From: Acidilobaceae archaeon | GTDB lineage: Archaea; Thermoproteota; Thermoprotei_A; Sulfolobales; Acidilobaceae | Direction: 5' to 3' | Length of the DNA: 64,000 nt | Assembly (NCBI GenBank): GCA_025058835.1 | Contig: JANXEI010000002.1 | Coordinates: 62,001-126,000, forward strand | Part shown: piece by piece, positions 1,045 through 33,635 of the stretch | Numbering within the stretch: the stretch's first letter is position 1 | How the letters are laid out: every line of letters starts with the position of its first letter | Notes under the pieces: model-generated | What the model saw: the letters and a program-made list of their open reading frames with translations, nothing else | Told to the model about the DNA's origin: nothing | Database searches by the model: none | Program-made: the position numbers and the translations under genes

Positions 1045-3165
1045 TCACTCTATGTAACCCTCGAGGCCCCACCCTCCCCTCGGCCCCTCCTCCCTCCCCA
1101 AGAAGTCCAATATGGCCCTCACAGTCTGAGGGCCGATGCCCGGGATCTTGAGGAGGTCTTCTGGGTTTGCAGTGAGGAGATCGTGTATCCCACGGTAGCC
1201 GGCGCTGTACAACCTTCTTGCCCTGAACCTGCCCACTCGCGGTATAGCGACCAGGGGGAGGAGCTCTGGCTTCACTCCATGCTTTATCCTGCTCTCCATC
1301 AGCTTCAGCTTGTCCGCGAGCTCCGCAGGCAAGTCCATGAGCCTGACTATGCGGGAGAGCCCAGAGGCTATCCAGACAGCGTTGTCCACGAGCACTGCAA
1401 TGTCTCCCGGCCCCACGTTGAACTTCTCCGCGATCTCGTCCTCTGGCACCTCCTCCACCCACGACCTCAGGATGAGGGCGACCTTGACTGCCCTCACCTC
1501 TTCCGGCTCCTGCCAATCTATTACGTCGAAGAGTTGAGGAGAGAGGGAGAGGACCTCCTCCATTAGCACCTCCTCCTCTTTCTTGCTTACAGGGAGGGCC
1601 GTCATGTCGGGCATGAGAGACAGCAGGAGGGAGAGCTCCAGCTCCCCTGTCCCCTTGATCCTCTCTACTGCCTCCCTGAGCGTGGGGACCGTAAGGGGAT
1701 CAAGGTAGTTCCGCGAGACCTCGTGGCCGAGGGGCGTAGCTCTCAGCTCCTCTCCCCCCTCAACTAGCCCCCACGCCTTCAGGTCCTCCAGCGCTTTGCC
1801 CGCCCTCCTCTTCACCTCTGCGGGAGAGCTCTGGAAGGAGTAGAGGGTTTTCTCCAGCACGCCGTATATGGGCTTCTTGCCAGAGAGGCCTGACGTCACT
1901 AGGCCCAGCACCATGTGCCTCAGCCTTCTCGAGCTGGTCAGCCTGCTCTCCACCCTCTCTACCTCCCCCATCGCGTAGCTCTCGAGGAGCTCCTCCGGCT
2001 CATCGCTAGAGGTAGCCACTATGATCGCCTCCCCGTAAGGGTCTAGCCCAGGCCTCCCTGCCCTCCCAGCAAGCTGCTTGTACTCCGCCACGCTGAGGGG
2101 CTTCCTGTAGCCCTCCTCGAACCTGTAGTACTCCTCCACCACTACCCTTCTAGCTGGCAAGTTTACACCTGCAGCGAGGGTAGGGGTGGAGTATATCGCT
2201 GCGAGACCGCCCCTCCTGAAGGCCTCCTCGATGATCTTCCTCTGCTCGTTAGAAAGGCCGGCATGGTGGTAGGACACGCCGCTTAAGATCAATCGATAGA
2301 GCTCCTCCCTCAGCACCCTTGGGCCCTCGCTCCTTGCAATCTCTGCCGCGGCCTCCCTCGCTACCTTTCTGTCATAGCACAAAAGCTCCGAGAGCCTGGC
2401 TGCCCTCCCCGCAAGCTGTACTGCCCTCCTCCTCGACTGGGAGAAGACTATGCTCTGACCCCCTTCCCTACAGGAATCGATGACGAGGTCAAGATCTGCG
2501 TGACCAGACTCCCTCCTTACCTCCCTCTCCTTCCCATCTGCATAATATATCCTCCCCTCCTTGTAAACGCCCTCGTACAGCGGCACGGGCCTCCAGCTGT
2601 CCTCCACAAGCTTCGCCCCTATCCAGTCTGCAATTTCCTTTGCGTTAGGGACCGTGGCGCTTAGTCCCACCACCTGGGGCCTTCCGTGGGAGAGGACGCG
2701 CGCGAGGAGGGACTCAAGCACTGGACCCCTCTCCTCGTCCCCCACGTAGTGAACTTCGTCTACCACTAGAACCTTGATCTTGGGGAGGAGATTAGGATCG
2801 TTCCGGATCATGGAATCGAGTTTCTCGTAGGTAGTGACCACCACGTCACCCTTGCCCTGCCCCCCTGCATAGTCCCCAATGCTCAGGCCTACCTGGTAGC
2901 CCATCTCCTCTAACACTCTGAAGCCCTCCCTCTTCTCCATGGCTATGCTCCTGAGGGGGGCAGTGTAGAAGGCCTTCCCCTCCCCTGGCAGCAAGGAGTT
3001 AACTATCGCTATCAGCCCCACGAGCGTTTTGCCTGAGGCAGTGGGCGTGGAGACTATTACGCTCTCCCCCCTCTCTATGCCGGCTTCAAGGGCCTTGGCT
3101 TGGGGGGGATAGAAGGAGGAATAGCCTAGCCTCCGCATGAGCTCCTCTGTCCTCTGGGACGGCAT
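1045..3165 (-). CDS. hel308: Hel308 (Hjm) superfamily 2 DNA helicase
   Basis: Hel308 is a 3'-5' helicase that unwinds lagging strands at stalled forks and works in recombination. Visible motifs in order: a Q-motif region GYSSFYPPQ, Walker A STPTASGKT (about residues 39-47), DEVH in VVDEVHYVGDEERG (about 135), GLSATVPNAKEIADW, FSQSRR, TPTLAAGVNLPARR (motif V) and QLAGRAGRPGLD (motif VI). The C-terminus has helix-hairpin-helix motifs including KIPGIGPQTVRAI. At 706 residues it matches the family length. ATG 3165 lies two bases after the mcm stop; the frame is open further upstream but overlaps mcm with low-complexity sequence. Co-transcription with mcm and gins23 couples it to the replication fork. 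Confidence 0.95.
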   Translation of the reverse strand: MPSQRTEELMRRLGYSSFYPPQAKALEAGIERGESVIVSTPTASGKTLVGLIAIVNSLLPGEGKAFYTAPLRSIAMEKREGFRVLEEMGYQVGLSIGDYAGGQGKGDVVVTTYEKLDSMIRNDPNLLPKIKVLVVDEVHYVGDEERGPVLESLLARVLSHGRPQVVGLSATVPNAKEIADWIGAKLVEDSWRPVPLYEGVYKEGRIYYADGKEREVRRESGHADLDLVIDSCREGGQSIVFSQSRRRAVQLAGRAARLSELLCYDRKVAREAAAEIARSEGPRVLREELYRLILSGVSYHHAGLSNEQRKIIEEAFRRGGLAAIYSTPTLAAGVNLPARRVVVEEYYRFEEGYRKPLSVAEYKQLAGRAGRPGLDPYGEAIIVATSSDEPEELLESYAMGEVERVESRLTSSRRLRHMVLGLVTSGLSGKKPIYGVLEKTLYSFQSSPAEVKRRAGKALEDLKAWGLVEGGEELRATPLGHEVSRNYLDPLTVPTLREAVERIKGTGELELSLLLSLMPDMTALPVSKKEEEVLMEEVLSLSPQLFDVIDWQEPEEVRAVKVALILRSWVEEVPEDEIAEKFNVGPGDIAVLVDNAVWIASGLSRIVRLMDLPAELADKLKLMESRIKHGVKPELLPLVAIPRVGRFRARRLYSAGYRGIHDLLTANPEDLLKIPGIGPQTVRAILDFLGREEGPRGGWGLEGYIE

Positions 3166-3167
3166 GA

Positions 3168-5207
3168 CTAGCCGACCGCCGTATAGCAGTCCTTCCCCCT
3201 GTCGTATATGAGGCCTTCTCTGTTCAGCTTCTTCACGGCCTCCTCTACCTTCCGCCTCTCCACATTTTTCTTCCCCATCTCCTCCACTATCTCCTCCAAC
3301 TTTACGCACTTGTCCTCGCCCCTCTTCCTGATGAGGTCTAGGACCTCTCCCATGATTTTCCTCTCGCTGAAGCTAGCACCCGTCATGATGGTGCTCATGT
3401 CCACGACCCCGCTCTCCACGTCCAAGCCCACGCTCGAGAGGTACTCGGTCATGAGCCTTATGGCTGCGCTAGCGTCCTCTTCCGTCACCTCGTCCCTCAG
3501 GACCATCCTCGCATGAGCCTCAGCGAGCCTCACGAGAGACTCCAGCTGCCTTGCAGTGATAGGGATGGGCGACTGTCCGTCCTGCTGGTGCTGGAGCGCC
3601 GTGCTCCTCATCTCCACGAAGAACTCCTCGATCAGCTTGCTTGCTGCGGGCGTGAGGCGAGGCCTCACGTACCTCCTCGCGTAGATCACGTATTTCCTCA
3701 GTAGTTCCGTATCTATTTCTGGCTTCAGCTTCTCCGGCTCAGCATGAACCCCCAGGATGTGCCTGACCAGCTGCTGATCTCTCCTCACGCTGATGGTGTC
3801 CCTCACGACAAAGATCAGGTCAAACCTCGAGAGGATCGTGGGCGGGAGGTTCACGTTGTCCACAAAGCTCCTCTTAGGATCGTAAAGGCCGAGCTTGGGG
3901 TTACCCGCTGCGAGCACGGAGGTCCTCGCGCTGAGCCTAGCCACGATCCCTGCCTTGGAAATGCTCACCTGCTGCTGCTCCATTGCCTCATGTATAGCTA
4001 CCCTGTCCTTTGGGTCCATCTTGTCTATCTCATCTATGACCGCCACCCCCCCATCTGCCAGCACAAGAGCCCCGGCCTCGAGGAAGAACTCCCCTGTCTT
4101 GCTGTCCCTCACCACTGCCGCAGTTAGCCCTGCTGCAGTGGAGCCCTTGCCTGTGGTGAAGACTGCGCGCGGCGCTATCCTGGCAGCAGCCTGGAGGAGT
4201 TGGCTCTTCGCCACGCCCGGGTCTCCTAGGAACAGGACGTGGATGTCTCCCCTGATCCTGCTCTCGTCCCTCAGGACCTTCGGCACACCGCCGAAGAGGA
4301 GGAGGGCTATGGCCTCCTTCAGGTTCCAATGGCCGTATATGCCAGGCGCTATGCTAGCTATTATCTTCTCCTTCGCCCACGGATCCTTAGCCAACTCTAT
4401 GATCTTTTCCTCGTCCTCCCTCGTTATAACTACTTCCTCCAGCGCCCTCTCTGAGACGCGACTGCCCACAGCTTCAATGTAAAGGTCTTGGTAGGGGCTC
4501 TTCATGTCCTCGTCGTAGAGCCTTACTATGCCCGTGATCGACACCCTGTCGCCAGGCCTCACGGAGTCGACGAGGTCCTCGGTTAGGTGTACAGAGATGC
4601 TCCTGGGCATCTGCCCGCCTGGGATGTCCTCTGGCCTCTCCTGAACCGCTATCTTCTGCCAATCTATGAGCTGGGAGCGCTCCCTCAGGAGCGTGAACCT
4701 CCCGCCTGCTTCCCCGCAGAGGGGACACGTGGTGGGCCTTTCAACCCTCTCTCCTATCTCCTCCTCCTCTGGCGGCCACTCGAACTCTCCGCCGCACTTG
4801 TCGTGGCGAAAGAGAGCCCTGAGGATCTTGCTCTTGTGGGGATGCATCCTGGTGACTATGCCCTCTATCTCCACGAGCTTTCCCACATGCTCGCTCCTCA
4901 CGTTCCTGATCTTGGTGACCTCGTAGAGCCCTACTACCCTTACCTTGTATCTGCCCTTCTTCCCTACGAGCCTGTTCAGCTCCTCGCCGAACTCTCGTAA
5001 CACCAGAGCCGGCTTCTGCGTCAAGGCCTCGGCAAGGCCTACGTCGTACCTGTACAGATCTCCGAACTCCACCACGAGGCTCCTCATGCCAAAGTTTACC
5101 ATTCTCTGGAGCCTCGCCTTGTACTTCAGCTCCCCGCTCTCGTCCCTGAAGCTGTTGACGAACTCCCTGAAAGAGTCTCCATATGATAAAGCTGCCTCGC
5201 TAGCCAT
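3168..5207 (-). CDS. mcm: MCM replicative DNA helicase
   Basis: This is the hexameric 3'-5' replicative helicase, the M of the CMG complex. The N-terminal half has a zinc-binding set (HDKC near residue 138 and CPLC at 161-164). The AAA+ core has Walker A GDPGVAKSQ (328-336), Walker B VAVIDEIDKM (about 391) and the arginine finger SRFDLIF. The C-terminal 80 residues look like the usual winged helix. Length is 679 residues. I chose ATG 5207 because a GGTGAG element stands about seven bases upstream; a GTG at 5216 is possible. It overlaps the end of gins23 by eight bases. Confidence 0.97.
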   Translation of the reverse strand: MASEAALSYGDSFREFVNSFRDESGELKYKARLQRMVNFGMRSLVVEFGDLYRYDVGLAEALTQKPALVLREFGEELNRLVGKKGRYKVRVVGLYEVTKIRNVRSEHVGKLVEIEGIVTRMHPHKSKILRALFRHDKCGGEFEWPPEEEEIGERVERPTTCPLCGEAGGRFTLLRERSQLIDWQKIAVQERPEDIPGGQMPRSISVHLTEDLVDSVRPGDRVSITGIVRLYDEDMKSPYQDLYIEAVGSRVSERALEEVVITREDEEKIIELAKDPWAKEKIIASIAPGIYGHWNLKEAIALLLFGGVPKVLRDESRIRGDIHVLFLGDPGVAKSQLLQAAARIAPRAVFTTGKGSTAAGLTAAVVRDSKTGEFFLEAGALVLADGGVAVIDEIDKMDPKDRVAIHEAMEQQQVSISKAGIVARLSARTSVLAAGNPKLGLYDPKRSFVDNVNLPPTILSRFDLIFVVRDTISVRRDQQLVRHILGVHAEPEKLKPEIDTELLRKYVIYARRYVRPRLTPAASKLIEEFFVEMRSTALQHQQDGQSPIPITARQLESLVRLAEAHARMVLRDEVTEEDASAAIRLMTEYLSSVGLDVESGVVDMSTIMTGASFSERKIMGEVLDLIRKRGEDKCVKLEEIVEEMGKKNVERRKVEEAVKKLNREGLIYDRGKDCYTAVG

Positions 5208-21391: not shown

Positions 21392-22651
21392 TTGAAGTAC
21401 CTGATCAAGGCCCGGATAGAGATAGACGGGAAAGTGGACAAGCACGACGTGATCGGGGCTATCTTCGGACAGACCGAGGGGTTGCTGGGACAAGAGTTCG
21501 ACCTGGAGGACCTGCAGGAGAAGGACAAGATAGGGAGGATGCAGGTGGACCTCAAGCAGGTGGGCAGCAAAACCGTGGGCTCCATTCAGCTGCCCAGCAA
21601 CCTAGACAGGGTGGAGACTGCTGTGCTCGCGGCGATGTTGGAGGTGATAGATAGAGTAGGCCCTTATGCTGCCCGGGTCGTGGTAGAGGACATAAAGGAC
21701 CTGAGGACGGAGAAGTTGAAAATAATTATAGAGAGGGCAAAGGAAATCATAAAGAAGATCAGGGAGAGCGAGCCCGACATAAAGGAGGTGCTCCGGCAGG
21801 TAGAGGGGGAGGTGGAGAGGGCTCCCAGAGTGATCGAGTACGGCCCCGAGAAGCTCCCCGCTGGCCCTGACGTGGAGGGAGCTGACACGGTCATAGTAGT
21901 GGAGGGGAGAGCAGACGTCATAAACCTCCTCAAGTACGGCTACACTAACGTAATAGCAGTTGAAGGCGCCAAGGAGTCCCTGCCAGAGAGCGTGAAGAGG
22001 TTAGCACAGAACAAGAAGGTCATCCTGTTCGTCGATGGCGACAGGGGCGGGGAACTCATCGCCACGAGCGCAATAGGTCAGATCAAGGTAGATTACGTGG
22101 CCAGGGCGCCGAAGGGGAGGGAGGTGGAGCAGCTCACGGGGAGGGAGATCGCGAAAGCCCTGAGCGAGATGGTGCCTGCTGAGGAGTTCCTGAAGGAGCT
22201 GAGGCCCCCGGAACAGAAGCCAGAGCAGGAAGTGAAGGAGCAAAAGGTGGAAGTAAAGGAGGAGCAGAAGGCGGAGGCGAAGCCTCTCACAGTCCCTGAG
22301 GCAGAGGTGCCGCAGGAGGAGGAGAAGCCAAAGCCAGCTGAGGTCACCCTGGCGCTGCCAAAGTCGGTGTTGGGGGAGGTAGAGAAGTTGAAGGGGACCC
22401 TAGAGGCAGTGCTCCTAGACAGTAAGTGGACCGAAATAGGGAGGGTGAAGGTGAAGGACCTCTTCAATGCCATCCAGTCGCTCGAGCAGGGGAAGGCCTT
22501 TGCCGTGATCTTCGACGGCATAATAACGCAGAGGCTGGTTGACCTGGCAGCGGAGAGGGGCGTCACCCTCCTCATAGGGGCGAGGATGGGCACTAAGCTG
22601 TCCTACAGGCCTCCAAACGTGCGCGTGCTCACCTTCAGCGACATAACCTAG
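21392..22651 (+). CDS. dnaG: DnaG-type primase, exosome-associated
   Basis: Archaeal DnaG is a Toprim-domain protein mainly found bound to the exosome cap; primase activity has been reported for some. The 419-residue protein has an N-terminal conserved domain (LIKARIEIDGKVDKHDVIGA), a Toprim core with VVEGRADV (about residue 170) and FVDGDRGG, then an E/K/P-rich linker (about 275-320) and a C-terminal domain of about 100 residues. The start is TTG 21392. It overlaps polB tail to tail by four bases. Confidence 0.95.
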   Translation: MKYLIKARIEIDGKVDKHDVIGAIFGQTEGLLGQEFDLEDLQEKDKIGRMQVDLKQVGSKTVGSIQLPSNLDRVETAVLAAMLEVIDRVGPYAARVVVEDIKDLRTEKLKIIIERAKEIIKKIRESEPDIKEVLRQVEGEVERAPRVIEYGPEKLPAGPDVEGADTVIVVEGRADVINLLKYGYTNVIAVEGAKESLPESVKRLAQNKKVILFVDGDRGGELIATSAIGQIKVDYVARAPKGREVEQLTGREIAKALSEMVPAEEFLKELRPPEQKPEQEVKEQKVEVKEEQKAEAKPLTVPEAEVPQEEEKPKPAEVTLALPKSVLGEVEKLKGTLEAVLLDSKWTEIGRVKVKDLFNAIQSLEQGKAFAVIFDGIITQRLVDLAAERGVTLLIGARMGTKLSYRPPNVRVLTFSDIT

Positions 22652-24969
22652 AAGAAGTCCTTGAGGGTCCTACGGGGGAGGAGCTGGGACTCCTTGACCC
22701 CGAAGTACCCCAATATCCTCATAGCCGCAGGGATGAGCTGTTTCTCAACATAGTACTCCCGGTCCACCTCCTCCCAGCTAGCCATGAAATAGGGCCTCGC
22801 CCGCGTGTAGAGAGGTCCTGAACCTTTAGCGATGACGTAACCTACCTTCGTCCCCGGCTCCACCTTTATGCCCTGCTTTACCATTATCTTAGCTGCAGTC
22901 ACATGGGCCTGCTCTGCCTTGTATTCGGAGAGCCTTCTCGTTATGGTCTTCCATATGACGAGCTTGTCAATGCTCACCTTTCCCTCCTTCACCTTCCTCC
23001 CCATCTCCTTCACGTACTCCACAGCCTCCTCCACTCTCCCCGTCTTGAGCACCAGCTCTGCAACTGCTGCCTGCGCCTCCTTGGCTAACTCGCTCCAGTC
23101 TCCCCTCACAGCCTCAAAGCCTGCTACATCTATCTTCCCGTCCTGAGTGAGCCCCACGTATCTCTTCTTTGCCTCTGTGAAGAACACCTTGCGGTAGACC
23201 TTGTCGACCTTTATGTCGAAGCCCAGCTCCTTCTCCACAAAAGCCACTAGCTGAGCCACCCTCTCGCTGTTCCTCACGAACAGGCTGTCCGTGTCCCCAT
23301 ATATCACCTCTATGCCCAGCTCTCTGGCCTTCGCTATGGCTGTCTTTATGAGGTTCCTCCCCCAGGCCGTGACCGCCTCAGCGCACTCCCTGCAGTACCA
23401 CCTGGCGCTAGGCCAGCCGAGGTAGCCGTAGCTCGCGTTGGCTAGTATCTTTATGGCCTTTTGCCTCTCGTCGAGGAGCCTGTACTCTGGGCTCCCCTTC
23501 TGGAGCCCCTCCATGGCTCTCCTGATCTCCCTCCTCCACCGGAGGAACCTCTCGAGCACCTCCTTGAAGAAGCCCGGGGGCTCCCTCCTGAAGGAGTGGC
23601 CTACCTCTGGCGCCGTATACCCCTCTCCTCTCGTGTCAGGACCCACGTTGTACTTGACCATTATGCTGGGGTACATGCTCGCAAAGTCTAGCACGGCCAC
23701 GTTCTCATGCACACCGGGCCTGGGCTCGAGCACTATGGCTCCCTCGTAACTCTCCTCCCCCCTTTCTACTCTGTTCGGCACAAGCTCCCCCCTCTTGAAG
23801 GCCTCCCTCATGAGCCTCCACTCCAGCCTGTAGCCTGTGCTGGCGCTCATGACCTGGTCGAGGGGGAGGCCGCTGATCTGGCTCATCTGGGCGCCGAAGG
23901 GGAGGAACTTCTGGGCTAGCCCCATGGTGGATATCACGTCATGCTCTAGGTACTTCCTCAGCACCTCCCTCTTGGCCTTGTCCTTCCAGTACTCCCCTAT
24001 CTGCCACCACTCGAGGAGGACCCTCTTCTCTTTCGGCATCACGCCCAAGTAATCGGCGACCTCGTCCAGGCTCTTCACCTTCACCTCCCCTATGCCGAAG
24101 GCGAAGTCCAGCAAGTCTACGTTTAGCCTCCCAGGCACAGAGTAGTGGCCGTAGGCGCCGCTCTGAGGCTCCTCTCCCCTCCTCCCCACCCCCAGCTCCA
24201 GCCCCAACACCTTCGCCCTCTCTATGAGGTAGGGCCAGTCGAACCTGTTCTGGTTGTAGCCCACTATTATGTCTGGGTTGAGCCTCCTCACCTCTTCCGC
24301 GAAGCCAGCTATGAGCTGCCTGTCGTCCTCTGACTCAAGGATCTTCAGCTCCCCCTCCGAGCTCATGAGTCCTATCATGATGACGGGGTCCCTCTTGGGG
24401 TCTGGCGTCCTCTGCTCGTTGAACACCTCTATGTCGAAGGCAAGCACCCTCAGGCCCTCGAGGGGGTCTAAGTTAGCCCTGCTGGCATCCTCCTCTATCT
24501 GACCTCTCACGAGGAAGGCTGCATCGGTACCATAGTGGTCTTGTATCTCCTCCACCTTCGCCGTATACCACCTCATGGGATAGAGGTTCATGTCTATGAG
24601 GAACCTCATGGAGAACCTTATGTCCGCCTCTAGGACCTCCTGCACTCCGGGTATCTCCTTCACCTCCTCCCTGTAGTCCCTGACGCTCCCTGGCACCAGG
24701 GTGGTGACCTTGAGGGGCCTCACGGGCCTCCCGAAGTACCTCCTCTCCACTTCCTCCACGGAGATGATAGGGCTAGAGGCCCTCGAGAGGGCGTATATCT
24801 CACTCGCGACCTTCTGGGGCTCCTCTGCTAGCACGTAAAAGTAGGGCTTGAAGCCGTCGTAGCAGATGGTAGCCCTCCTCCCGTCGGAGAGCCTAGAGAG
24901 CATGAGTATCCTTGGCTCCTTCCCCACCAGCTCATAGCTAACGTCCAATAACTGGAAAGTGACCTCCAC
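22648..24969 (-). CDS. Family B DNA polymerase (PolB3-like)
   Basis: A replicative-type polymerase with proofreading. Exonuclease motifs are LAFDIEVFNE (ExoI), IVGYNQNRFDWPYL (ExoII) and YLEHDVISTMGL (ExoIII). Polymerase motifs are DFASMYPSIM (A), KILANASYGYLG (B) and YGDTDSLF (C). Length (773) and motif A fit the PolB3 group better than the longer crenarchaeal PolB1; the group is inferred. The C-terminus RRTLKDFF resembles a PCNA-interacting peptide. A minus-strand AATAAAACC near 24997-25005 is a plausible TATA for the GTG start at 24969. Confidence 0.95.
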   Translation of the reverse strand: MEVTFQLLDVSYELVGKEPRILMLSRLSDGRRATICYDGFKPYFYVLAEEPQKVASEIYALSRASSPIISVEEVERRYFGRPVRPLKVTTLVPGSVRDYREEVKEIPGVQEVLEADIRFSMRFLIDMNLYPMRWYTAKVEEIQDHYGTDAAFLVRGQIEEDASRANLDPLEGLRVLAFDIEVFNEQRTPDPKRDPVIMIGLMSSEGELKILESEDDRQLIAGFAEEVRRLNPDIIVGYNQNRFDWPYLIERAKVLGLELGVGRRGEEPQSGAYGHYSVPGRLNVDLLDFAFGIGEVKVKSLDEVADYLGVMPKEKRVLLEWWQIGEYWKDKAKREVLRKYLEHDVISTMGLAQKFLPFGAQMSQISGLPLDQVMSASTGYRLEWRLMREAFKRGELVPNRVERGEESYEGAIVLEPRPGVHENVAVLDFASMYPSIMVKYNVGPDTRGEGYTAPEVGHSFRREPPGFFKEVLERFLRWRREIRRAMEGLQKGSPEYRLLDERQKAIKILANASYGYLGWPSARWYCRECAEAVTAWGRNLIKTAIAKARELGIEVIYGDTDSLFVRNSERVAQLVAFVEKELGFDIKVDKVYRKVFFTEAKKRYVGLTQDGKIDVAGFEAVRGDWSELAKEAQAAVAELVLKTGRVEEAVEYVKEMGRKVKEGKVSIDKLVIWKTITRRLSEYKAEQAHVTAAKIMVKQGIKVEPGTKVGYVIAKGSGPLYTRARPYFMASWEEVDREYYVEKQLIPAAMRILGYFGVKESQLLPRRTLKDFF

Positions 24970-25000: not shown

Positions 25001-25321
25001 TTATTGGGATATCTCTTGCACCCTCCTCCTTGCCTCCTCTAGAGCCAGCTGCTCGTTGGGTTTCGCGCTGTGGGGGTCGAAGGGATATCTGCTCAAGATG
25101 AGCCTTACGCTCCCGTCCTCCAGCCTAGCGAAGAGCTGAGGGAGCCAAGCCATGCCGAGATCGTCCGTCTCCCCGTGCTCCATGGCGAAGACGTAGTCCT
25201 CCGAGATCACTTCCAGCTCCGCGCCCAGCTCCTGGCTCAGAGCCTTCGCAAGTTTCAGCCAGTCCTTGTGGAGGGGGTGATGTTCAGCAGTGTCAAGTAT
25301 GACCTTAGATATCTTGGGCAT
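25001..25321 (-). CDS. Unknown small protein downstream of endonuclease IV
   Basis: Not recognised. From ATG 25321, preceded by GGTGGT, it encodes 106 residues: MPKISKVILDTAEHHPLHKD at the start, an ELEVISEDYVFAMEHGE strand-rich middle, then RLILSRYPFDPHS and a charged helix at the end. It has alternating strands and helices with no membrane segment or cysteines. Eighteen bases after the endonuclease IV gene and in line with it, it probably belongs to the same operon. Confidence 0.6.
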   Translation of the reverse strand: MPKISKVILDTAEHHPLHKDWLKLAKALSQELGAELEVISEDYVFAMEHGETDDLGMAWLPQLFARLEDGSVRLILSRYPFDPHSAKPNEQLALEEARRRVQEISQ

Positions 25322-25338
25322 TTCGACCACCGCCCTGC

Positions 25339-26214
25339 CTACCCCTTGAACCCTTTTATCTTGATCTCCTCACATATGCCTTTCATGACCAAGGCGTCCT
25401 TGTCCAGGATGGGGCTCTCGCTTATGGTAACAGCACTGTAGCCGAGCTCGAGGTAGGTCTTGCAAACTATGGCCCACTCAGGCCCCCCCTGCTGGGAGAG
25501 GGTGAGGTGCTCCCGCTCCCCTCCCCTCCCATACTTGATCTTTGAGAAGTGGGAGTGTATGGGGCTCACTGCCTCCCTCCCCAGCTCCCTCTCCAAGTAC
25601 TCCAACACCTTGATCACGTCCTCCTGCGTTATCACGTACTTCCCCTCAGCCCTCGCGTATAGGTGGGCCCAGTCTATGCAGGGCTTGCACCTCCCCACGT
25701 TCCTGCATATCTCCACCGCCTCCTCCACAGTGCCCACCTGGCTGGCCTTGCCCATGATCTCAGGCGAGATCTTCGCCCTCCTCACATCTACCCTGGAGAG
25801 CGCCTCCCTGTAGCCATCTATGACCCTCTTGAGGGCGTCCTCCCTGCTCGCATGCCCCTTGTAGTAGCCAGAATGTATCACCACAGCCTCAGCGCCCATC
25901 CACTCCGCGGCCAGGAGGGACTCGACCACCCTCTGGATGCTCCTCTCGAAGACGTCCCTCTCCTTACTGGCCAGGTTGATGTAGTATGGGGCATGAAGGC
26001 TCATGACCACATCGTTCCTCTCTGCCTCCTCCCCCAGCCTTCTCGCCCTCGCCTCGCTTATCTTCACCCCGTGCACCGCCTCGTACTCCATCGCGTCCAG
26101 CCCGATGGAGCGGAGGTACTGCGGGACCCCCTCTATGGCTCCCTTGTAGTCTAGGGGTACTCCCGCTGGCCCGAACCTAAGCCTCAGTCCTCCCCACCTC
26201 CAGCTCCTCCGCAA
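25339..26214 (-). CDS. nfo: Endonuclease IV (AP endonuclease family 2)
   Basis: Cuts DNA at abasic sites. Metal ligands of the TIM barrel are seen in order: SLHAPYYIN, VIHSGYY, PEIMGK, CIDWAHLYAR, IHSHFS, REH and the final ESPIL glutamate. About 290 residues. The homology starts at RLRFGPAGVPLDYKG. The only usual start codon in frame is TTG 26214 without a good ribosome-binding site; a CTG at 26187 lies seven bases after GGAGGTG and may be the true start. It overlaps the preceding gene by 38 or 11 bases accordingly. It is the fourth gene of the PIN/VWA operon. Confidence 0.93.
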   Translation of the reverse strand: MRRSWRWGGLRLRFGPAGVPLDYKGAIEGVPQYLRSIGLDAMEYEAVHGVKISEARARRLGEEAERNDVVMSLHAPYYINLASKERDVFERSIQRVVESLLAAEWMGAEAVVIHSGYYKGHASREDALKRVIDGYREALSRVDVRRAKISPEIMGKASQVGTVEEAVEICRNVGRCKPCIDWAHLYARAEGKYVITQEDVIKVLEYLERELGREAVSPIHSHFSKIKYGRGGEREHLTLSQQGGPEWAIVCKTYLELGYSAVTISESPILDKDALVMKGICEEIKIKGFKG

Positions 26215-26695
26215 GCTTCAGGTAGAGCTTTTCCACGTTCATGTTGTTCCTGTACGTCACCGCCCCCGCCAGCTCTCCGTGGTACTTTATCCAACCTGGT
26301 AGGCTGGGCCTCAGGACGAGGAGCTTGTAGGCCACGCCCATCCTCTGCAGGAACCTGAAGGCCAGCTCCACCTTGAACCTAGGCCTGACGGCAGCCGACC
26401 AGAGTATGAGGGTGCCCCAGGGCTCCTCCTCCAGCTCCACCATCTCCCTCACCTCACGAAGGGCCTCCAGGAGGTCCGCAGACTTGCCCAAGAAAGGGAC
26501 CTGGTCGAAGGCTTCAGGCAACAGGTCCCATCTATCGGTGGGGTCGATGAGGGGCAACGCTCTCTCTCCGTAGACTACGAGCGATACCCTGTAGCCCTCC
26601 GGCTTCCGCAGGGCAGCGGCTGCCTTCAGGAACTCGGTTACCAGCACAGGGTCGATCTCCTTCGTCTTCTCCGCTGCGAGGACCAGCAGGGGCAA
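26177..26695 (-). CDS. VWA-like protein without MIDAS metal site
   Basis: No family is recognised by name. The 172 residues follow the same strand-helix order as the VWA protein encoded just before it: YRVSLVVYGERALPLIDP parallels ALALFHERPIPLLPL, KSADLLEALREV parallels the second loop, and TLILWSAAV parallels VIVFTDGG. The metal motif DxSxS is absent (LVLAAEKT at the N-terminus). I read it as a degenerate VWA domain that may pair with its neighbour. The start is TTG 26695, 27 bases after the VWA gene. Confidence 0.6.
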   Translation of the reverse strand: MPLLVLAAEKTKEIDPVLVTEFLKAAAALRKPEGYRVSLVVYGERALPLIDPTDRWDLLPEAFDQVPFLGKSADLLEALREVREMVELEEEPWGTLILWSAAVRPRFKVELAFRFLQRMGVAYKLLVLRPSLPGWIKYHGELAGAVTYRNNMNVEKLYLKLAEELEVGRTEA

Positions 26696-26721: not shown

Positions 26722-27267
26722 CTATAAGCGTAGGGTCTCGAAGGCCAGGGAGAGGAGCCTCTGCTTCGAGTCTACCATGTGGATCTCTGCGCCCACCTGA
26801 GCAGCTGCCCTGAGGTCCTCCGCTACGTCCCCCCTAACCTCCCTGTTCAGGATCAGAAGGGAGAGCCTAGCGTTGCTGAACTTAGCATAGAGCGCAGCAG
26901 CCCTCAGGGGGACCCCCTCCGTGACGCCGCCGTCGGTAAACACTATCACCACCTTCTCCCTCTTGCTCGACCTCAACAGCTTCACCGCCTCCACTATGCC
27001 ATCGCCTAAGGCCGAGCCTTCCCTCACGAAGTTCACCTCGGCAAGAGCCTTCATGAGGGCCCTGTACTCTGCGGTGAGGGGGAGAAGGGGGATAGGCCTT
27101 TCGTGGAAGAGGGCAAGGGCTATCCTTGAGCCCGCCTGGAGGGCTCTGCTGCCCGATACGGCAATCACCTCCTTGCTCGCCTCGAGCCTGCTGGGCACTA
27201 GCTCGCTGTATCTGTCTCCCATGCTCAGCGATATGTCCAGGGCTATTGCAATGTCCTTAGCGCTCAA
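26722..27267 (-). CDS. VWA domain protein
   Basis: A stand-alone von Willebrand A domain of 181 residues. The metal-ion-dependent adhesion site is intact: ALDISLSMG (DxSxS, residues 9-17), the second-loop serine in REGSALGDG and VFTDGG. Archaeal VWA proteins often act with AAA+ partners, but none is adjacent here. The TTG start at 27267 overlaps the end of the RHH-PIN gene by 11 bases, so the two are likely made together. Confidence 0.85.
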   Translation of the reverse strand: MSAKDIAIALDISLSMGDRYSELVPSRLEASKEVIAVSGSRALQAGSRIALALFHERPIPLLPLTAEYRALMKALAEVNFVREGSALGDGIVEAVKLLRSSKREKVVIVFTDGGVTEGVPLRAAALYAKFSNARLSLLILNREVRGDVAEDLRAAAQVGAEIHMVDSKQRLLSLAFETLRL

Positions 27268-28015
27268 GCCTCGTCCACCTCTCCTCTAGCTCCGGCGGCA
27301 CAAGGGAGGGAACGGCCTTCAGTGACATGAGGAGCTCTCTCACGTCCTTGAGCTCTCCCCTCCTCTCTGCCGTGAGGGCGAGGGAGAGGCTAGCGTATGC
27401 CCTCAACCCCTCCCTCCTTGCCCTCTCCCTCACTCTCACGTCATCTGAGAGGACCACCAGTCCCAGCTCCTTTGCTCGCTCGAGAACGCTCCTCTCCAGA
27501 GGCGAGAAGTTGTCGTCTCCCTCCTCCTCCAGCTCCACCTCCAACTGCTCCCAGCGGCTCTTCACAGGGATCCCCAGCCTCACCATCTTGGCCTCCATCA
27601 CCTGTGCCGTTGGGACGAGCTGCTTCGGCAACACCAGCCTAGCTGGGACGGAGGGGAGAAGGCGGTGGAGAAAGCTCCTGTATGTGACGAACAGGGCAGA
27701 AGGATCTAGGAGAACCTTCCCCTCTAGGACGGTCAGGTCGTCCTCCCTCAATGCGCCAAGAAGGGGCAAGACGCCTTTGGAGAGCATGTAATCGATCATG
27801 CCCTCTATGCTTGTGCCAGCAAGCTCAGCCACATAGTGGAGGCTGGCCTCCCTGGAGAGGTAAGTCTGCAAGGCCAGCTCCCTGAGGTCGTACCTTTCGA
27901 GGAAGATCCTGACTGCCTCCCTCACAGCCTCTGCTGCGCTCGGATATGCGCCGAGCTCTACGAGCCTCCTCAGCCTCCTCTCCAGGGGACCGGAGATGTC
28001 AATGCTAATGACCAT
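27257..28015 (-). CDS. One-chain RHH-UPF0175-PIN protein (antitoxin-toxin fusion)
   Basis: The 252-residue protein has three parts. Residues 1-45 form a ribbon-helix-helix motif (ISIDISGPLERRLRRLVELG, then PSAAEAVREAVRIFLE). Residues 46-85 resemble UPF0175 antitoxins (QTYLSREASLHYVAELAGTS). Residues 98-230 resemble a DUF3368-type PIN nuclease: LLDPSAL at its first strand and SPLERSVLERAKELGLVVLS followed by DD in the last part. UPF0175 and DUF3368 proteins are normally separate partners of a toxin-antitoxin pair. Here it heads an operon with two VWA-type proteins and endonuclease IV. A minus-strand TTTTTTATG stretch near 28046-28054 is a probable TATA element. Confidence 0.7.
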   Translation of the reverse strand: MVISIDISGPLERRLRRLVELGAYPSAAEAVREAVRIFLERYDLRELALQTYLSREASLHYVAELAGTSIEGMIDYMLSKGVLPLLGALREDDLTVLEGKVLLDPSALFVTYRSFLHRLLPSVPARLVLPKQLVPTAQVMEAKMVRLGIPVKSRWEQLEVELEEEGDDNFSPLERSVLERAKELGLVVLSDDVRVRERARREGLRAYASLSLALTAERRGELKDVRELLMSLKAVPSLVPPELEERWTRLER

Positions 28016-28045
28016 AAATATCCTGAGAAGGAAGAGAAAAGAAAC

Positions 28046-28054
28046 ATAAAAAAG
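28046..28054 (-). promoter_or_regulatory. Probable promoter of the RHH-PIN operon
   Basis: The plus strand is ataaaaaag, so the minus strand carries a T-rich TATA-like element about 31-39 bases before the ATG at 28015. It also follows the S-layer gene, where the same T-run could help end upstream transcription. Confidence 0.35.
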
Positions 28055-28076: not shown

Positions 28077-31000
28077 CTAAGGCTTCCTGGCCACGAAGAT
28101 CGAGTAGGCCAGCAGCGCTATTGCTATGACTACGAGCACGGCGTTGATGATGCCCCAGTTCCTGGCGTTCACTGACAGAGAGTCCTGGCTGCTCTGGATC
28201 TGGCTCTCCAGAGCAGATCTGGCCTCCCTGACTGCGCTCTCCACCGCTGCAACCCTGCTGTTCAGAGAGCTCTCTGCTGCAGCCACCCTGCTGTTCACCG
28301 CATCCCTAGCTCCCGCGAGGTCTGACTTGGTGGCAACGCCTGCCATAGCTGCGTTCACGCTGTCCACAACACTCCTGATGCCCACTACCCTGTCGTTCAC
28401 CGTGGACAGGGTGGTCCTCACCTCTGCCAGCACGCTCTGTACAGTGGTGACCCCAGCGCCCACTGCTGCTATGTCAGTCCTAGCCCTGCCCACCTCAGAG
28501 AGTATGGAGTCCATCCTGCTTGTTGCCTCGCTCCTGAAGGCAGCAAGCGCATCAGAGAGGGACCTAGCAGAGCTCTCGACCCTGCTGTCCACAGCCCTGA
28601 TCAGGGCTGCGAGAGCGCTCGCGTTAGCCCTCACCACGCCGATTATTGCATCCCTGCCCGCTACTATGGCTGCCCTAACGGCGCCGCTCTCGCTCACCAC
28701 CAGGTCTCTCAGGCTGGCGTTCATAGCCCTCATGAGGGCGGCCAGGCCTGCTATGTCAGTCCTCACTGCAGCGAAGCCGCTGACGACTGTGGCGTTCATC
28801 CTGCTGAGGGAGCTCACGACAGCGCTGATCCTGTCGTTAGCAGTTATGAGGGCAGCTATCTGAGCGTCAGCCTTGTCGTTCACGGTCACCAGCAGGCCCC
28901 TTATGGCGGTCAAGTTAGCCCTCACGCCTGCGCTGAAGGCCGAGAGGTCTCCTCTGAGGGCTGACAGGTTTGCAGCTATCTGTGACCTCACGACGGAGAG
29001 CTGAGCAGATAGGCTGCTGATGAGGCTCTCAATAGCGCTCAGGTTAGCCCTCAGGGCCAGCCTGAGCTCCTCGCTGAGGCTCCTGGCTGGCACGAATATG
29101 CTCGCCACGTTAACAGCGGCGTCCTCTGGCGCTCCAGGCACGAACCTAGCTCTTGCCTCCACCATTACGACGACAGCCCTACCCTTCGCATCGGCTCCGA
29201 ACACGGCAATGGGATCGAAGGAGGCGAAATAGACTGCAGGAGATGAGGGAGCAGTGCCAAGCGCAGGGCTAACGATTAAGTTAGCTAGCTGAGTAACTGC
29301 ACCAACTCTCAGGTAGGCGCTGGCCGCAATGCTTGATATCTGACGGAGCTGCGCCAGCGAGCCTCCGTAGAAGCCTATGACCCATATGCTGGCAGGCACC
29401 TCAGCTATGGGGGAGCTCTCAGCCACTACATCTATCCTGAAGGACGGAACCGTTCCGATTCTTACAGTTATGTTAGCGGTAGAGGTGCCAGCCCTTAGCC
29501 TTATGATGTAGGTGCCTGGTGGTAGGTCAAGCACAGGCAGGTTTATCCATCCCTCGAAGACTCCTCTTGTGTCAGTCGACACCCCGACCGGGGCTGCGGA
29601 GGGGCCTCTCTGCAACTCCCTATCTGTAATTCCAACTGCAGGTATATCGTACTTCACCGCCTGGTTAGCAGCAAAAGCTACTCCCCTCACGGTTAAGTTC
29701 ATGGCTACTGGCAGGAAGACCTCCTTCCTTAAAGCGAGGTCCGCGGGGTCGCGAGCGGCTGCTGTCGGTCTCACCGTTAGCGGGCCAGTTGCATTGGAGA
29801 CGGCTGAGAGGACATTGGTTGAGTTCACCTGTATTCGATAGTTTCCAGAAGGCACGGTAGGTACTCTGATGTTGCGCAGCTCAAGGGAACCAGTTCCGTT
29901 CCTCGGAACGTTGGAGAGCAGTAAAATATTAGAGGGTAGCAGAGACACGTTGAACCTCAGCGCGCCTGGGCTGAAACCGTAAACCAGGAGGTTGAAGACC
30001 CTGGAACTCTCAACCTCCCATGCTGCCTCAAACGGGAACTTGATAGCTCCTAGCGACAGGTTCGCCACCGGTGCCTTACTCGTTAGGCTCAAATCTCCTG
30101 CGCGAGGTTCGATGAACACTCTAGCGGCACCATAGTTGGTTGTACCGGTCATGTTGTGGTTGTTGAAGCCAACGGGAGAGTCTACATAAACCCTCAGCCT
30201 TAGCACATTGTTCTGGTAGAGCCTCAGCGCAGAAGGAATCTGGTACACTCCTACAAAGGAGCCGTTGTCGAAGCTCCTGAAGGCTAGCCTAATTGGCACT
30301 ATCCTAATGGTCCCGTTCATGAGGTCAACGGTCACGTTAGCCGGCCTGTTATAGCCTACTCCCCTTACGACGAAGATCTCGCCGGGCACTAGCATGAGGC
30401 TGGTGAAGTTAGTGGGAACACGGGTGCCGTTGTTGTTGAAGGCGAAGAACTGGGCTGCCGGTAGCACGCGCTGAGCTAGCCGGAAGGCGGGGACGGCAAA
30501 GCGATCTCCAGCCACAGTCAAGTTGGCCGTTACCACAGCCTCTCTGCCTCCGAACGGGGCAGCAGGTATAGATACTGTGACGCTCGCTGAGCCATTATCC
30601 GTTGTCTTCGCATCTGTTCTCACAGATGTCAACGGAGCGAAGAGGGCGCCCTCTCTCACGTAGATCGACAGGACTAGCAGGCCTCCTCTCCTGAAGTTGC
30701 GAACGTCGACAATAAGGTTGTCGCCAGGCGTAATCCTCGCTGTTCCTAATTCAAATTCGTTTGGGTCTCTGTTAGCGAAGCTGAACCTCGTCGTGGGATA
30801 GATGCTCACCCTATTCGGCAGCTCTAAGCTGATCACCAGCTTTCTGAAACTTAGAGAGGTCCCTGGGGGCCTAACGACGACGTTGTTCCTCTTCACTTCT
30901 GCTATTGTCTCTCCAGATCCTGCGTTTATGGTAACGCTTCCGTTTGTTACCACGAGCCCAAGGTTGAACCTCTGGAACCCTACGGTTATGCCACCTATGT

Positions 31001-31823
31001 TCCCGGTGCTAGCTGGGCAAGCTAGAGAGAAGTTGCCTATCCTCCCAGTGAAGTTGGCTATCCTACCATCTGGGCTTACTCTGAAGCGTACAGCGTACAG
31101 GAAGTTGCTCGATAGCTGGGGACTGGCGGTAGTGACGTTAGAAACGACGAGCACAGGCTGAGCAGGGCATGGCAGGAAGCTCGAGAGGGTTATGTTGATG
31201 TTCATCTCACCTGCCGCCACGTTGAGCCTCCCGCTCCCGGGAACTCCGAGGGCCGTCATGTTGATTATGAACTTCGTCCTGTTGTAAGGCCTGAAGTCAC
31301 CAAATCCGTGAGAGGTTAAGTTGAAGAACGCGAGGTCTTCGATGTCTGCCGGGTTGACCGTCACGTTCTCTGTGAGCCTCAGGGCTCTGCTCAACCTAGC
31401 GGCATCCTTGACAAGGATAGTGAAGTTAGCGGAGACTACGGCAGAACTGCCGACCTGATTGGAGTTGGAGACCTTCAGGTAGACTGATCCTTCCGGGAGC
31501 GTTACAGTAGCGGGCACTAGGAGCGTCCCTACTACGTATCTGGCTCCCACTACGTTTATCGATGCTATTAGCTCGTCAGCGGGCTCTACTTGCGGAGTAG
31601 CATTGCGGGATAGGAAAAAGTGCAGCACCGGTGAAGCAAATAGTTGACCTAGTTGCCTGTCGACATAGAAGGCCAGCTCGGAACCAGGAGATATTGCTCT
31701 GTTGTACACAACTACGGGCACTCCTTGGGACTGAGCTATGTATGCATCTAGCAGCGGGACTGCGAGCGGGAACAGCATGAGAGCCAATACGAGAGCTGAC
31801 GCTACCTTTCTCAACCCATTCAC
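28077..31823 (-). CDS. Giant S-layer-like surface protein with coiled-coil stalk and C-terminal anchor
   Basis: 1,248 residues from GTG 31823. A signal peptide (VASALVLALMLFPLAVPLL) comes first, ending near YIAQSQ. Then follows about 850 residues of beta-rich sequence with many N-x-S/T glycosylation sites and Ig-like repeats. From about residue 930 the sequence is alanine-rich helix with regular hydrophobic spacing for 290 residues (for example SALRGDLSAFSAGVRANLTA), and a final membrane helix (INAVLVVIAIALLAYSIFV) ends in ARKP. This layout, with globular head, long stalk and anchor, recalls tetrabrachion of Staphylothermus. The start was chosen by the TATA box at 31853-31860; the frame is open further up but outside the likely transcript. 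S-layer function is inferred. Confidence 0.8.
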   Translation of the reverse strand: MNGLRKVASALVLALMLFPLAVPLLDAYIAQSQGVPVVVYNRAISPGSELAFYVDRQLGQLFASPVLHFFLSRNATPQVEPADELIASINVVGARYVVGTLLVPATVTLPEGSVYLKVSNSNQVGSSAVVSANFTILVKDAARLSRALRLTENVTVNPADIEDLAFFNLTSHGFGDFRPYNRTKFIINMTALGVPGSGRLNVAAGEMNINITLSSFLPCPAQPVLVVSNVTTASPQLSSNFLYAVRFRVSPDGRIANFTGRIGNFSLACPASTGNIGGITVGFQRFNLGLVVTNGSVTINAGSGETIAEVKRNNVVVRPPGTSLSFRKLVISLELPNRVSIYPTTRFSFANRDPNEFELGTARITPGDNLIVDVRNFRRGGLLVLSIYVREGALFAPLTSVRTDAKTTDNGSASVTVSIPAAPFGGREAVVTANLTVAGDRFAVPAFRLAQRVLPAAQFFAFNNNGTRVPTNFTSLMLVPGEIFVVRGVGYNRPANVTVDLMNGTIRIVPIRLAFRSFDNGSFVGVYQIPSALRLYQNNVLRLRVYVDSPVGFNNHNMTGTTNYGAARVFIEPRAGDLSLTSKAPVANLSLGAIKFPFEAAWEVESSRVFNLLVYGFSPGALRFNVSLLPSNILLLSNVPRNGTGSLELRNIRVPTVPSGNYRIQVNSTNVLSAVSNATGPLTVRPTAAARDPADLALRKEVFLPVAMNLTVRGVAFAANQAVKYDIPAVGITDRELQRGPSAAPVGVSTDTRGVFEGWINLPVLDLPPGTYIIRLRAGTSTANITVRIGTVPSFRIDVVAESSPIAEVPASIWVIGFYGGSLAQLRQISSIAASAYLRVGAVTQLANLIVSPALGTAPSSPAVYFASFDPIAVFGADAKGRAVVVMVEARARFVPGAPEDAAVNVASIFVPARSLSEELRLALRANLSAIESLISSLSAQLSVVRSQIAANLSALRGDLSAFSAGVRANLTAIRGLLVTVNDKADAQIAALITANDRISAVVSSLSRMNATVVSGFAAVRTDIAGLAALMRAMNASLRDLVVSESGAVRAAIVAGRDAIIGVVRANASALAALIRAVDSRVESSARSLSDALAAFRSEATSRMDSILSEVGRARTDIAAVGAGVTTVQSVLAEVRTTLSTVNDRVVGIRSVVDSVNAAMAGVATKSDLAGARDAVNSRVAAAESSLNSRVAAVESAVREARSALESQIQSSQDSLSVNARNWGIINAVLVVIAIALLAYSIFVARKP

Positions 31824-31852
31824 CTTAGTCGAGAAGAGGTGGGAGAAAAGGG

Positions 31853-31860
31853 TATTTAAG
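31853..31860 (-). promoter_or_regulatory. TATA box of the S-layer-like gene
   Basis: CTTAAATA on the minus strand, centred about 33 bases before GTG 31823, gives a predicted leader of some seven bases. It lies downstream of the end of the 548-residue gene, so the giant protein has its own promoter. Confidence 0.55.
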
Positions 31861-31905
31861 GGAATAGGCACATGGATCCCTTGAACGGAACCCCCTCCTT
31901 CCGGG

Positions 31906-33552
31906 TCAGTCAAGCCTAACCAGCATCTGACGGCCCTGCCTGTCCACCGCGAGGGCTAACCCCCTCCACCCCCTCTCCGCAGGCATGAGCTCGACTACGC
32001 CCCCCTTCTCCTCCCACTTCAACGGATAGAAGACAACGGGCTGGGAGAAGGAGTAGCCGGCCTCGGGGAGGAGCCTCGCATAGCCTATGCTCGAGCTCCC
32101 CCTACTCTCAACCCTCAGCTCCTGATGAGCACCTAGCAATATAGTGAGGTTACCTGCTCTCACTATGGCAGGCCCGCCCCAGGGCGCAGGAAGGGCGCCC
32201 TCCCTCGCGGAACCATAGACCCAAAAGGTGCAAATTCTGTTTTGGTTGAAACCCAAGTTCATCTGCGGCAGCGCTGGAGGGGAGAGCTCTGTAGGATAGT
32301 ATCTAAGCGTTACCCTCGTCTCCTTGTCGAAGTAGATGGGGAAGCTGAGGTCCCTCACGTAGCTGGGTTCATCGTGAACTACGGCCTCAACGTGAGGTCT
32401 CCCGCGTAGGGCGAAGGAAAGGGCCTCTGTGAGCGGTTCTGCGCCAGAGGGACGGAGGGGCAGGAGCTCCAGTCTCGAGCCGGGAGGCATTGTTATGTTG
32501 AGCTCTGCTGCGGGCTCGAAAGCCCTCACCGCACGGAGGCGTACGTGGAATGTCATATATATTTCAAGGCGCTCTCTTGGGGGGAAGTGCGCGTGGCTTA
32601 CCCAGGCTAGTCCTACAACTCTTCGCGAGTCCACGAAATCTACAGTTCCCCTTCCCTCTATGCGACGATCCCAAAACTTGTAATGGAAGCTGTCCTCATA
32701 GCAGATGCTGAACTCGTAGGAGCCGCCGGGCGAATATGCGAGGGGTATCACTCCTGCCACTATGTCTCTCGTCTCGTGAGGACCTAGCAGCCGGTACTCG
32801 GAGAGCGTCCAAGCCGCGACGAGTACAGTAGCTGTTCCAGAGAAGGACGTCTTGGGGGGCCCTTCTATGGTTAGGTACGTCACCAGAGGTAGCCCGAACG
32901 GGGAACCAGGAGACCTTTCGCAGCGAGCCCATAGCTCCACCCTCCCTATCGAGGTGTTCCAAGAGCGGAGGAGCGCCCTTCCTTGGTAGTAATAACCAGA
33001 ATGTATTATGGTACAGTCGTGGCGAACTGAAAGGTCCTCACGCGTTTCGATGTTGAGGCTAACGGTCCTCGAGCGGACGTCTCCCATGGGCACGACCAGA
33101 ACGTTGCCTATCTCAGGATCTCGGGAGCTCAGCAATCTCCCAGAGTTATCCAAGAGGCCACAAGAGTGCCACCTGCTCCCCACCACGAGGCCGGAGGAGA
33201 GCACTGCGTGGAGCCTCACAGGGGCACAGGAGTAATTCTCGAGGAGCCTTATTCTAGCGTTCTCGAAGGTGCCCCCCTCTAGCCGGAGCAGCGTTCCGTT
33301 CTTGAACTCTAGCAGGAAGTACTTTATGCTGACGGGCCTGGCAGAGACTACTAGCGCCGAAAGGCCCTGAGAGTGGTCGAGCCTGATCTCGAGGGAGCTG
33401 GAGGAATCTGCGATAATCTGGCTTATCTTAGCAGCGCTGTCCTCGCTGCTCCTCCTTATGCTGGAGCTGAGGGTAAGGGCAGTGGAAAGGGCACTGAGCA
33501 TTACCAGCGATATTATGAGCACAGCGACCAGCGAGCTCACGGCCTTGCGCAT
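31906..33552 (-). CDS. Large secreted protein with pilin-type signal sequence
   Basis: Not a named family. From ATG 33552 (GGAG six bases upstream) it encodes 548 residues starting MRKAVSSLVAVLIISLVMLS, which matches an archaeal class III (type IV pilin-like) signal: basic residues, a cut site before VSS, then a hydrophobic helix. The rest is beta-rich with cysteines and some N-x-S/T sites and no second membrane helix. Such signals are processed by PibD-type peptidases. An AGCTTTTACG element at 33597-33606 is a likely TATA. It lies directly upstream of the S-layer-like gene on the same strand, so it may be a surface partner. Confidence 0.65.
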   Translation of the reverse strand: MRKAVSSLVAVLIISLVMLSALSTALTLSSSIRRSSEDSAAKISQIIADSSSSLEIRLDHSQGLSALVVSARPVSIKYFLLEFKNGTLLRLEGGTFENARIRLLENYSCAPVRLHAVLSSGLVVGSRWHSCGLLDNSGRLLSSRDPEIGNVLVVPMGDVRSRTVSLNIETREDLSVRHDCTIIHSGYYYQGRALLRSWNTSIGRVELWARCERSPGSPFGLPLVTYLTIEGPPKTSFSGTATVLVAAWTLSEYRLLGPHETRDIVAGVIPLAYSPGGSYEFSICYEDSFHYKFWDRRIEGRGTVDFVDSRRVVGLAWVSHAHFPPRERLEIYMTFHVRLRAVRAFEPAAELNITMPPGSRLELLPLRPSGAEPLTEALSFALRGRPHVEAVVHDEPSYVRDLSFPIYFDKETRVTLRYYPTELSPPALPQMNLGFNQNRICTFWVYGSAREGALPAPWGGPAIVRAGNLTILLGAHQELRVESRGSSSIGYARLLPEAGYSFSQPVVFYPLKWEEKGGVVELMPAERGWRGLALAVDRQGRQMLVRLD

Positions 33553-33635
33553 AAGCATCTCCAGTAGCCAGGAGGGGAAGGGGAGGGGGGAGAGGTAAGC
33601 GTAAAAGCTCAAGGCTAAGAGTGATTAAGGGGACC

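Follow-up and report, generated by a model that had tools for sequence, protein, structure and literature searches.

The window, a stretch of 64,000 nucleotides from an Acidilobaceae archaeon, carries on its reverse strand a gene (27257..28015; ATG at 28015, stop at 27257) that joins a ribbon-helix-helix (RHH) segment, a UPF0175-type HTH and a PIN domain of the DUF3368 type in a single chain of 252 residues. The reading that we favor, at a probability of roughly 55%, is that a single fusion of a toxin-antitoxin pair was followed by domestication, which yielded an RNase or regulator that is restrained in cis and has a VWA protein as its partner. A move away from classic toxin-antitoxin behavior is indicated by the single grouping of the fused forms, one copy per genome, a conserved chromosomal position and purifying selection.

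Domain architecture of the fused protein

The RHH occupies residues 1-43 (27887..28015; all domain and codon coordinates in this section refer to the reverse strand), with model helices at residues 10-20 and 27-41. It is followed by a UPF0175-type three-helix HTH (residues 44-90, 27746..27886; model helices 45-54, 59-66 and 70-79), assigned through a family profile match, whose last part, the former antitoxin tail, would now serve as a linker into the PIN domain. The PIN core spans residues 98-210 (27386..27724) and is identified by a PDB profile, Pfam, a fold search and profile-profile comparison. The remaining residues 211-252 (27260..27385) form a DUF3368-type extension with conserved P236 and P240; the profile alignment spans this region, and in separate PIN proteins the corresponding C-terminal part is covered by the Pfam model for DUF3368.

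Taken alone, the window protein is nearly dark in Pfam. UPF0175 is hit below the cut-off (E 0.11; 12.6 bits against a Pfam cut-off of 27.9) and VapB at E 0.15, no Pfam PIN family appears at E ≤ 10, and PF11848 gives no match; a ParD-type RHH is detected with NCBIfam at E 1.6e-4. Searched member by member, 28 of the 29 family members match TIGR02606, the ParD family RHH (best 9e-8), and with Pfam models RHH_1 is matched by 18/29, UPF0175 by 8/29 (best 0.0017) and the PIN family PF20698 by 20/29 (best 6e-13). A profile built from the 29 members finds, in the PDB, the ParD-type antitoxin chains 6x0a and 5ceg with residues 13-46 (4e-5 to 8e-5) and the PIN protein 1o4w with residues 102-210 (2e-4). 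In profile-profile comparisons, the family aligns with separate DUF3368 proteins along 144 columns that extend across the C-terminal DUF3368 region (98.1%, E 9e-14), and its HTH part gives 96.5% (E 1e-9) with UPF0175 antitoxins encoded by separate genes; the UPF0175 comparison set included a few mis-picked ORFs, which can only have weakened this match. Cross-comparisons and unrelated controls all stay below 1%. On sequence grounds, the fused protein is a divergent relative of UPF0175 rather than a Pfam-grade member of that family.

An AlphaFold2 model of the chain (mean pLDDT 94.5) displays the RHH helices, an HTH of three helices and, at the C-terminus, an alpha/beta domain; the best fold matches of the latter in the PDB are mainly PIN proteins, at a modest E of about 1e-3 to 1e-2. 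A fold search with the full chain gives no match with E under 1e-3 and includes some Rossmann-like proteins that are unrelated, and these searches serve as supporting evidence only. Collectively, the real ORF, its homologues and the family profiles agree with the original prediction of RHH, UPF0175-like and PIN-like parts in one 252-residue chain. That prediction had offered the profile placement of residues 95-240 as its own refutation test, and the region falls inside the PIN superfamily; the UPF0175 assignment of the HTH, likewise put forward for a profile check, holds at the family level. The concern that the PIN call is a wishful reading is countered by the family profile, the PDB profile, the fold search and the controlled profile-profile comparison, which all favor PIN.

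Eleven columns are invariant in the 29-homologue alignment: L18, G22, Y24, E29 and R32 in the RHH, P84 and G87 in residues 44-90, and D104, E174, D192 and P236 further on. In a larger set of 37 homologues, P84 is kept in 37/37 and G87 in 35/37. The three PIN acids, i.e., the first acid D104 (codon 27704..27706), E174 (27494..27496), which aligns with the GE-motif of DUF3368, and D192 (27440..27442), the second D of a DD, are retained in 37/37, the very divergent homologue at locus L092 included. This invariance makes it less likely that the protein is solely a repressor whose PIN domain has lost its activity. E141, at the position of a further acid in many PIN domains, is a glutamate in only 19/37, so catalysis may be weak or altered.

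Separate pairs and the descent of the fused form

UPF0175 and DUF3368 are normally separate partners, as the original prediction had assumed: across 121 genomes of the phylum, 31 of 35 DUF3368 hits have a UPF0175 match as a neighboring gene on the same strand, about 500 nt and at most about 600 nt upstream. Separate pairs keep the order of the fused chain, and two cases come nearest to its layout. At L076/L102, a 106-aa RHH-UPF0175 protein precedes a 160-aa PIN protein, and at L074 a 75-aa UPF0175 gene overlaps a 156-aa DUF3368 PIN gene by 4 nt. Some genomes hold such a pair together with the fused gene. The separate DUF3368-like PIN genes at L100, L103 and L104 are preceded by genes for 205-226-aa proteins with UPF0175 similarity; the one scanned, at L104, also weakly matches Panacea (SocA-like), a possible Panacea-UPF0175 antitoxin fusion. 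UPF0175 (COG2886)-PIN (COG2405/DUF3368) type II pairs, such as the COG2886-COG2405/DUF3368 pair in Geobacillus (Makarova et al., PMC6929052), have the antitoxin and toxin domains of the fused chain in the same order, yet they consist of two separate, patchily distributed genes, whereas the fused form is one vertically kept, single-copy chain accompanied by a VWA gene.

The window protein is present once in its own genome. A single-sequence search gives matches in 33/60 related genomes, most of which span the full chain as a single open frame, and the homologues share 25-65% identity with it; the fused form is found in 32/61 genomes compared, with one full-length copy in each. A single-sequence scan of GTDB contigs returned no match; an alignment-based GTDB scan returned 26 loci, of which four (L053-L056) match the RHH only and are not fused homologues. 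GTDB relatives with a homologue include Acidilobaceae, Caldisphaera, Thermodiscus, Pyrodictiaceae and other Desulfurococcales archaea. Searches of viral contigs and plasmids returned no homologue. In place of the separate genes of type II toxin-antitoxin systems, the homologues have one open frame, and in place of a mobile, patchy, multi-copy distribution they have a single copy with conserved neighbors.

When PIN domains from 37 fused and 28 separate proteins are placed in one tree, a single branch (support 100/99) divides the two forms; because the root is not fixed, the tree is consistent with one fusion without dating or directing it. The ancestor would have been a two-gene pair of the VapBC type, with an RHH-UPF0175 antitoxin upstream and a DUF3368 PIN toxin downstream. 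A single fusion may have occurred in an ancestor of Acidilobaceae-type and Pyrodictiaceae-type archaea and their relatives, and the product would have been retained as a single-copy chromosomal gene. The dN/dS ratio is 0.04-0.10 in close pairs and 0.22 in the more distant pair formed by the window and L002, and it is low in both halves of the chain. Judged by these ratios, the fused gene is under purifying selection. A chance ORF or a frameshift artefact is ruled out by the low dN/dS and by the single open frame in homologues down to about 25% identity.

VWA partner genes and genomic neighborhood

Downstream of the fused gene lies VWA1 (181 aa; 26722..27267, reverse strand), which matches Pfam VWA_2 at 2.7e-11, has an intact MIDAS (D11-x-S13-x-S15, D112) and overlaps the stop end of the fused gene by 11 nt. 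In 45 loci, and in 35/35 distinct genomes with downstream sequence, the gene that comes next on the strand of the fused gene, at -64 to +156 nt, encodes a VWA protein; the two fused loci without one both end at a contig edge. The original prediction of "no partner gene" thus stands for a separate toxin or antitoxin gene and has to be given up for the VWA gene. Both the fused gene and VWA1 are present in 32/61 genomes, and G001, where the contig ends inside VWA1, is alone in having VWA1 only. The DNA surrounding the sampled separate pairs, mostly 1.5 kb on either side, yielded no VWA1-like gene; as far as sampled, the VWA gene is tied to the fused form. Divergence of the fused protein and of the VWA protein is correlated (r 0.87), as expected from shared descent alone. 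VWA1 is probably co-transcribed and translationally coupled with the fused gene.

Within the VWA1 alignment, S13, S15 and D112 of the MIDAS are invariant and D11 is kept in at least 90%; the divergent copy at L092, left out of that alignment, is degenerate in its MIDAS. The fused homologue of that locus (L092/L167, genome G051), 240 aa long, has kept the three PIN acids and has degenerate VWA genes on both sides. VWA1 is usually followed by VWA2, in the window a 172-aa protein (26177..26695, reverse strand) with a VWA fold and a degenerate MIDAS. VWA2 is distantly related to VWA1 (98.8% in profile comparison), and most of its members have lost the DxSxS and TDG motifs. At L006, L034, L035 and L052, the second VWA gene is convergent, having been kept despite inversion.

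Upstream, a large secreted S-layer-like protein of 1278 aa (28077..31913, reverse strand), with a coiled coil and a C-terminal TM segment by eye, is encoded by a gene that ends 62 nt before the fused gene. Next to it lies the gene for a 568-aa protein with an N-terminal hydrophobic segment (31906..33612, reverse strand), which has no Pfam match and stays beside the S-layer-like gene in close relatives; look-alikes recur by S-layer-like genes in relatives, e.g., at L032, L034, L052 and L094. Among 29 loci, the upstream neighbor, on the same strand or divergent, is a protein of at least 1000 aa with a secreted-looking N-terminus in 20. In eight of the 29 (Caldisphaera, Acidilobus, Hestiella and one other) a large secreted neighbor is missing, and in one further locus it lies 1.2 kb downstream, so the S-layer link is frequent and not obligate. 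Subtilases of 1313-1345 aa account for three of the seven neighborhood surface proteins scanned (L036, L085 and L087). Each of these sits between the S-layer-like gene and the module and is probably of the STABLE type. A subtilase is what one would expect for STABLE, the protease attached to the S-layer stalk of Staphylothermus (PMC5744192).

A TATA-like element, CTTTTTTATG (28045..28054, reverse strand), was recognized by eye 30-39 nt before the ATG, and the nearest relative carries a similar one, CCTTTTTATG; it is possibly the module's own promoter. Inspection of the upstream regions by eye gave no convincing shared operator. On the other side of the module lie genes for an Endonuclease-IV-like TIM barrel (window 25339-26214), for a conserved 109-aa protein of unknown function (25001-25330) and, at 22648-24969, for a family B DNA polymerase (773 aa). 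Many relatives keep the barrel gene and the 109-aa gene adjacent to their VWA genes. At L165 (G001), four extra genes (1322-3487), which by eye comprise an ATPase-like ORF, two small ORFs and a paREP1/HEPN-like ORF, separate VWA2 from the endonuclease-IV-like gene.

Proposed function and competing explanations

Most likely, the chain works as a metal-dependent RNase, which would dimerize through its RHH, and the covalently attached antitoxin part may restrain the PIN domain in cis. Because such an enzyme cannot be freed by antitoxin decay, the likeliest means of control is the VWA protein from the downstream gene, which has an intact MIDAS and may bind the chain; VWA1, often together with the degenerate second VWA, would switch or localize the nuclease. 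vWA domains are known to bind peptides via the MIDAS (PMC7159879). Since the module usually neighbors S-layer and subtilase genes, the expression of envelope genes is a candidate target.

Several described systems resemble parts of this arrangement. EzeT of E. coli is a single-chain zeta toxin with a cis-acting antitoxin (PMC4826407); as in the fused protein, antitoxin and toxin are covalently linked, and EzeT is auto-regulated and thought to derive from the fusion of a bicistronic operon. However, its toxin is a kinase and not a PIN domain, its antitoxin is another one, and a VWA partner is not mentioned there. By analogy, the architecture of the fused protein fits cis quenching of the PIN domain as in EzeT, for which chaperone binding was listed among the possible routes of activation (PMC4826407). 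MoxR-vWA conflict systems, some of which carry PIN effectors (PMC7159879), likewise combine a vWA co-chaperone with PIN RNase domains. In those systems a MoxR AAA+ ATPase is present and PIN is joined to the vWA component, whereas here PIN is joined to RHH-UPF0175, and no MoxR AAA+ ATPase was apparent when the neighboring ORFs were inspected. ArnB, a vWA protein of Sulfolobus acidocaldarius involved in repressing a surface-structure operon (PMC5898192), is a crenarchaeal regulator of surface-structure genes and a precedent for the kind of role proposed for the VWA protein here; it is not described with an RHH-PIN protein.

The original prediction had suggested a regulated RNase or repressor instead of a toxin. 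The grouping, copy number, conserved position and selection support the departure from a classic toxin-antitoxin system, and the protein may act as an RNase, a repressor or both. One reading that we regard as unlikely is that the protein is mainly a DNA-binding transcription regulator of local surface-protein genes, acting through RHH and HTH with PIN as a ligand or dimer domain: the chain does contain two DNA-binding-type domains, S-layer-type genes adjoin it in most loci and ArnB provides a parallel for the VWA partner, but a non-catalytic PIN would not need the three catalytic acids that are invariant in 37/37. All 37 homologues also carry an acid at residue 6 of the RHH strand, a position that usually faces DNA in proteins of this kind, and an acid there is unusual for DNA contact. 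It reportedly also occurs in RK2 ParD, which binds DNA, and the notion that the RHH cannot bind DNA owing to this residue was dropped.

The gene might also still be a defense or abortive-infection system, in which a toxin held in cis is freed upon virus infection or damage with the VWA protein as sensor or release factor; in agreement with this, the PIN part weakly matches the PADLOC candidate defense family PDC-S70 (E 9e-7), and separate UPF0175-DUF3368 pairs occur in some of the same genomes. Yet defense genes usually turn over fast, and one copy per genome in a conserved position, the one fused grouping, the low dN/dS and the failure to find copies in viral contigs or plasmids make this reading rather improbable. 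Hardly credible at all is a decaying relic without function, whose one point of support is that some bacterial fused toxin-antitoxin genes are thought inactive (the Phd-RelE fusion, PMC4826407). Reading frames that stay open over deep divergence (25-65% identity), the invariant active site and the strict VWA linkage contradict it, and the dN/dS of 0.04-0.10 already largely refutes it.

Returning to the domesticated fusion, a more specific version can be put forward tentatively: an undescribed module of thermophilic archaea, in which a single-chain RNase would be gated by a MIDAS-containing VWA protein, together with a MIDAS-dead second VWA, rather than by antitoxin proteolysis, and would tune how strongly the S-layer and the protease associated with it are expressed. 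A search of open papers yielded no description of a fused UPF0175-DUF3368 protein or of a PIN, VWA and S-layer cluster.

The fused gene represents a clear natural case in which a toxin-antitoxin pair turned into a gene that is inherited vertically, seems to be domesticated and keeps a constant partner. It makes the fate of toxin-antitoxin modules that are no longer selfish directly testable, as both the fused and the separate version can be studied, in some cases within a single genome. Should the VWA protein prove to be the switch, PIN RNase control would be independent of antitoxin decay, and the module may offer a handle on the control of S-layer synthesis in Desulfurococcales-type archaea.
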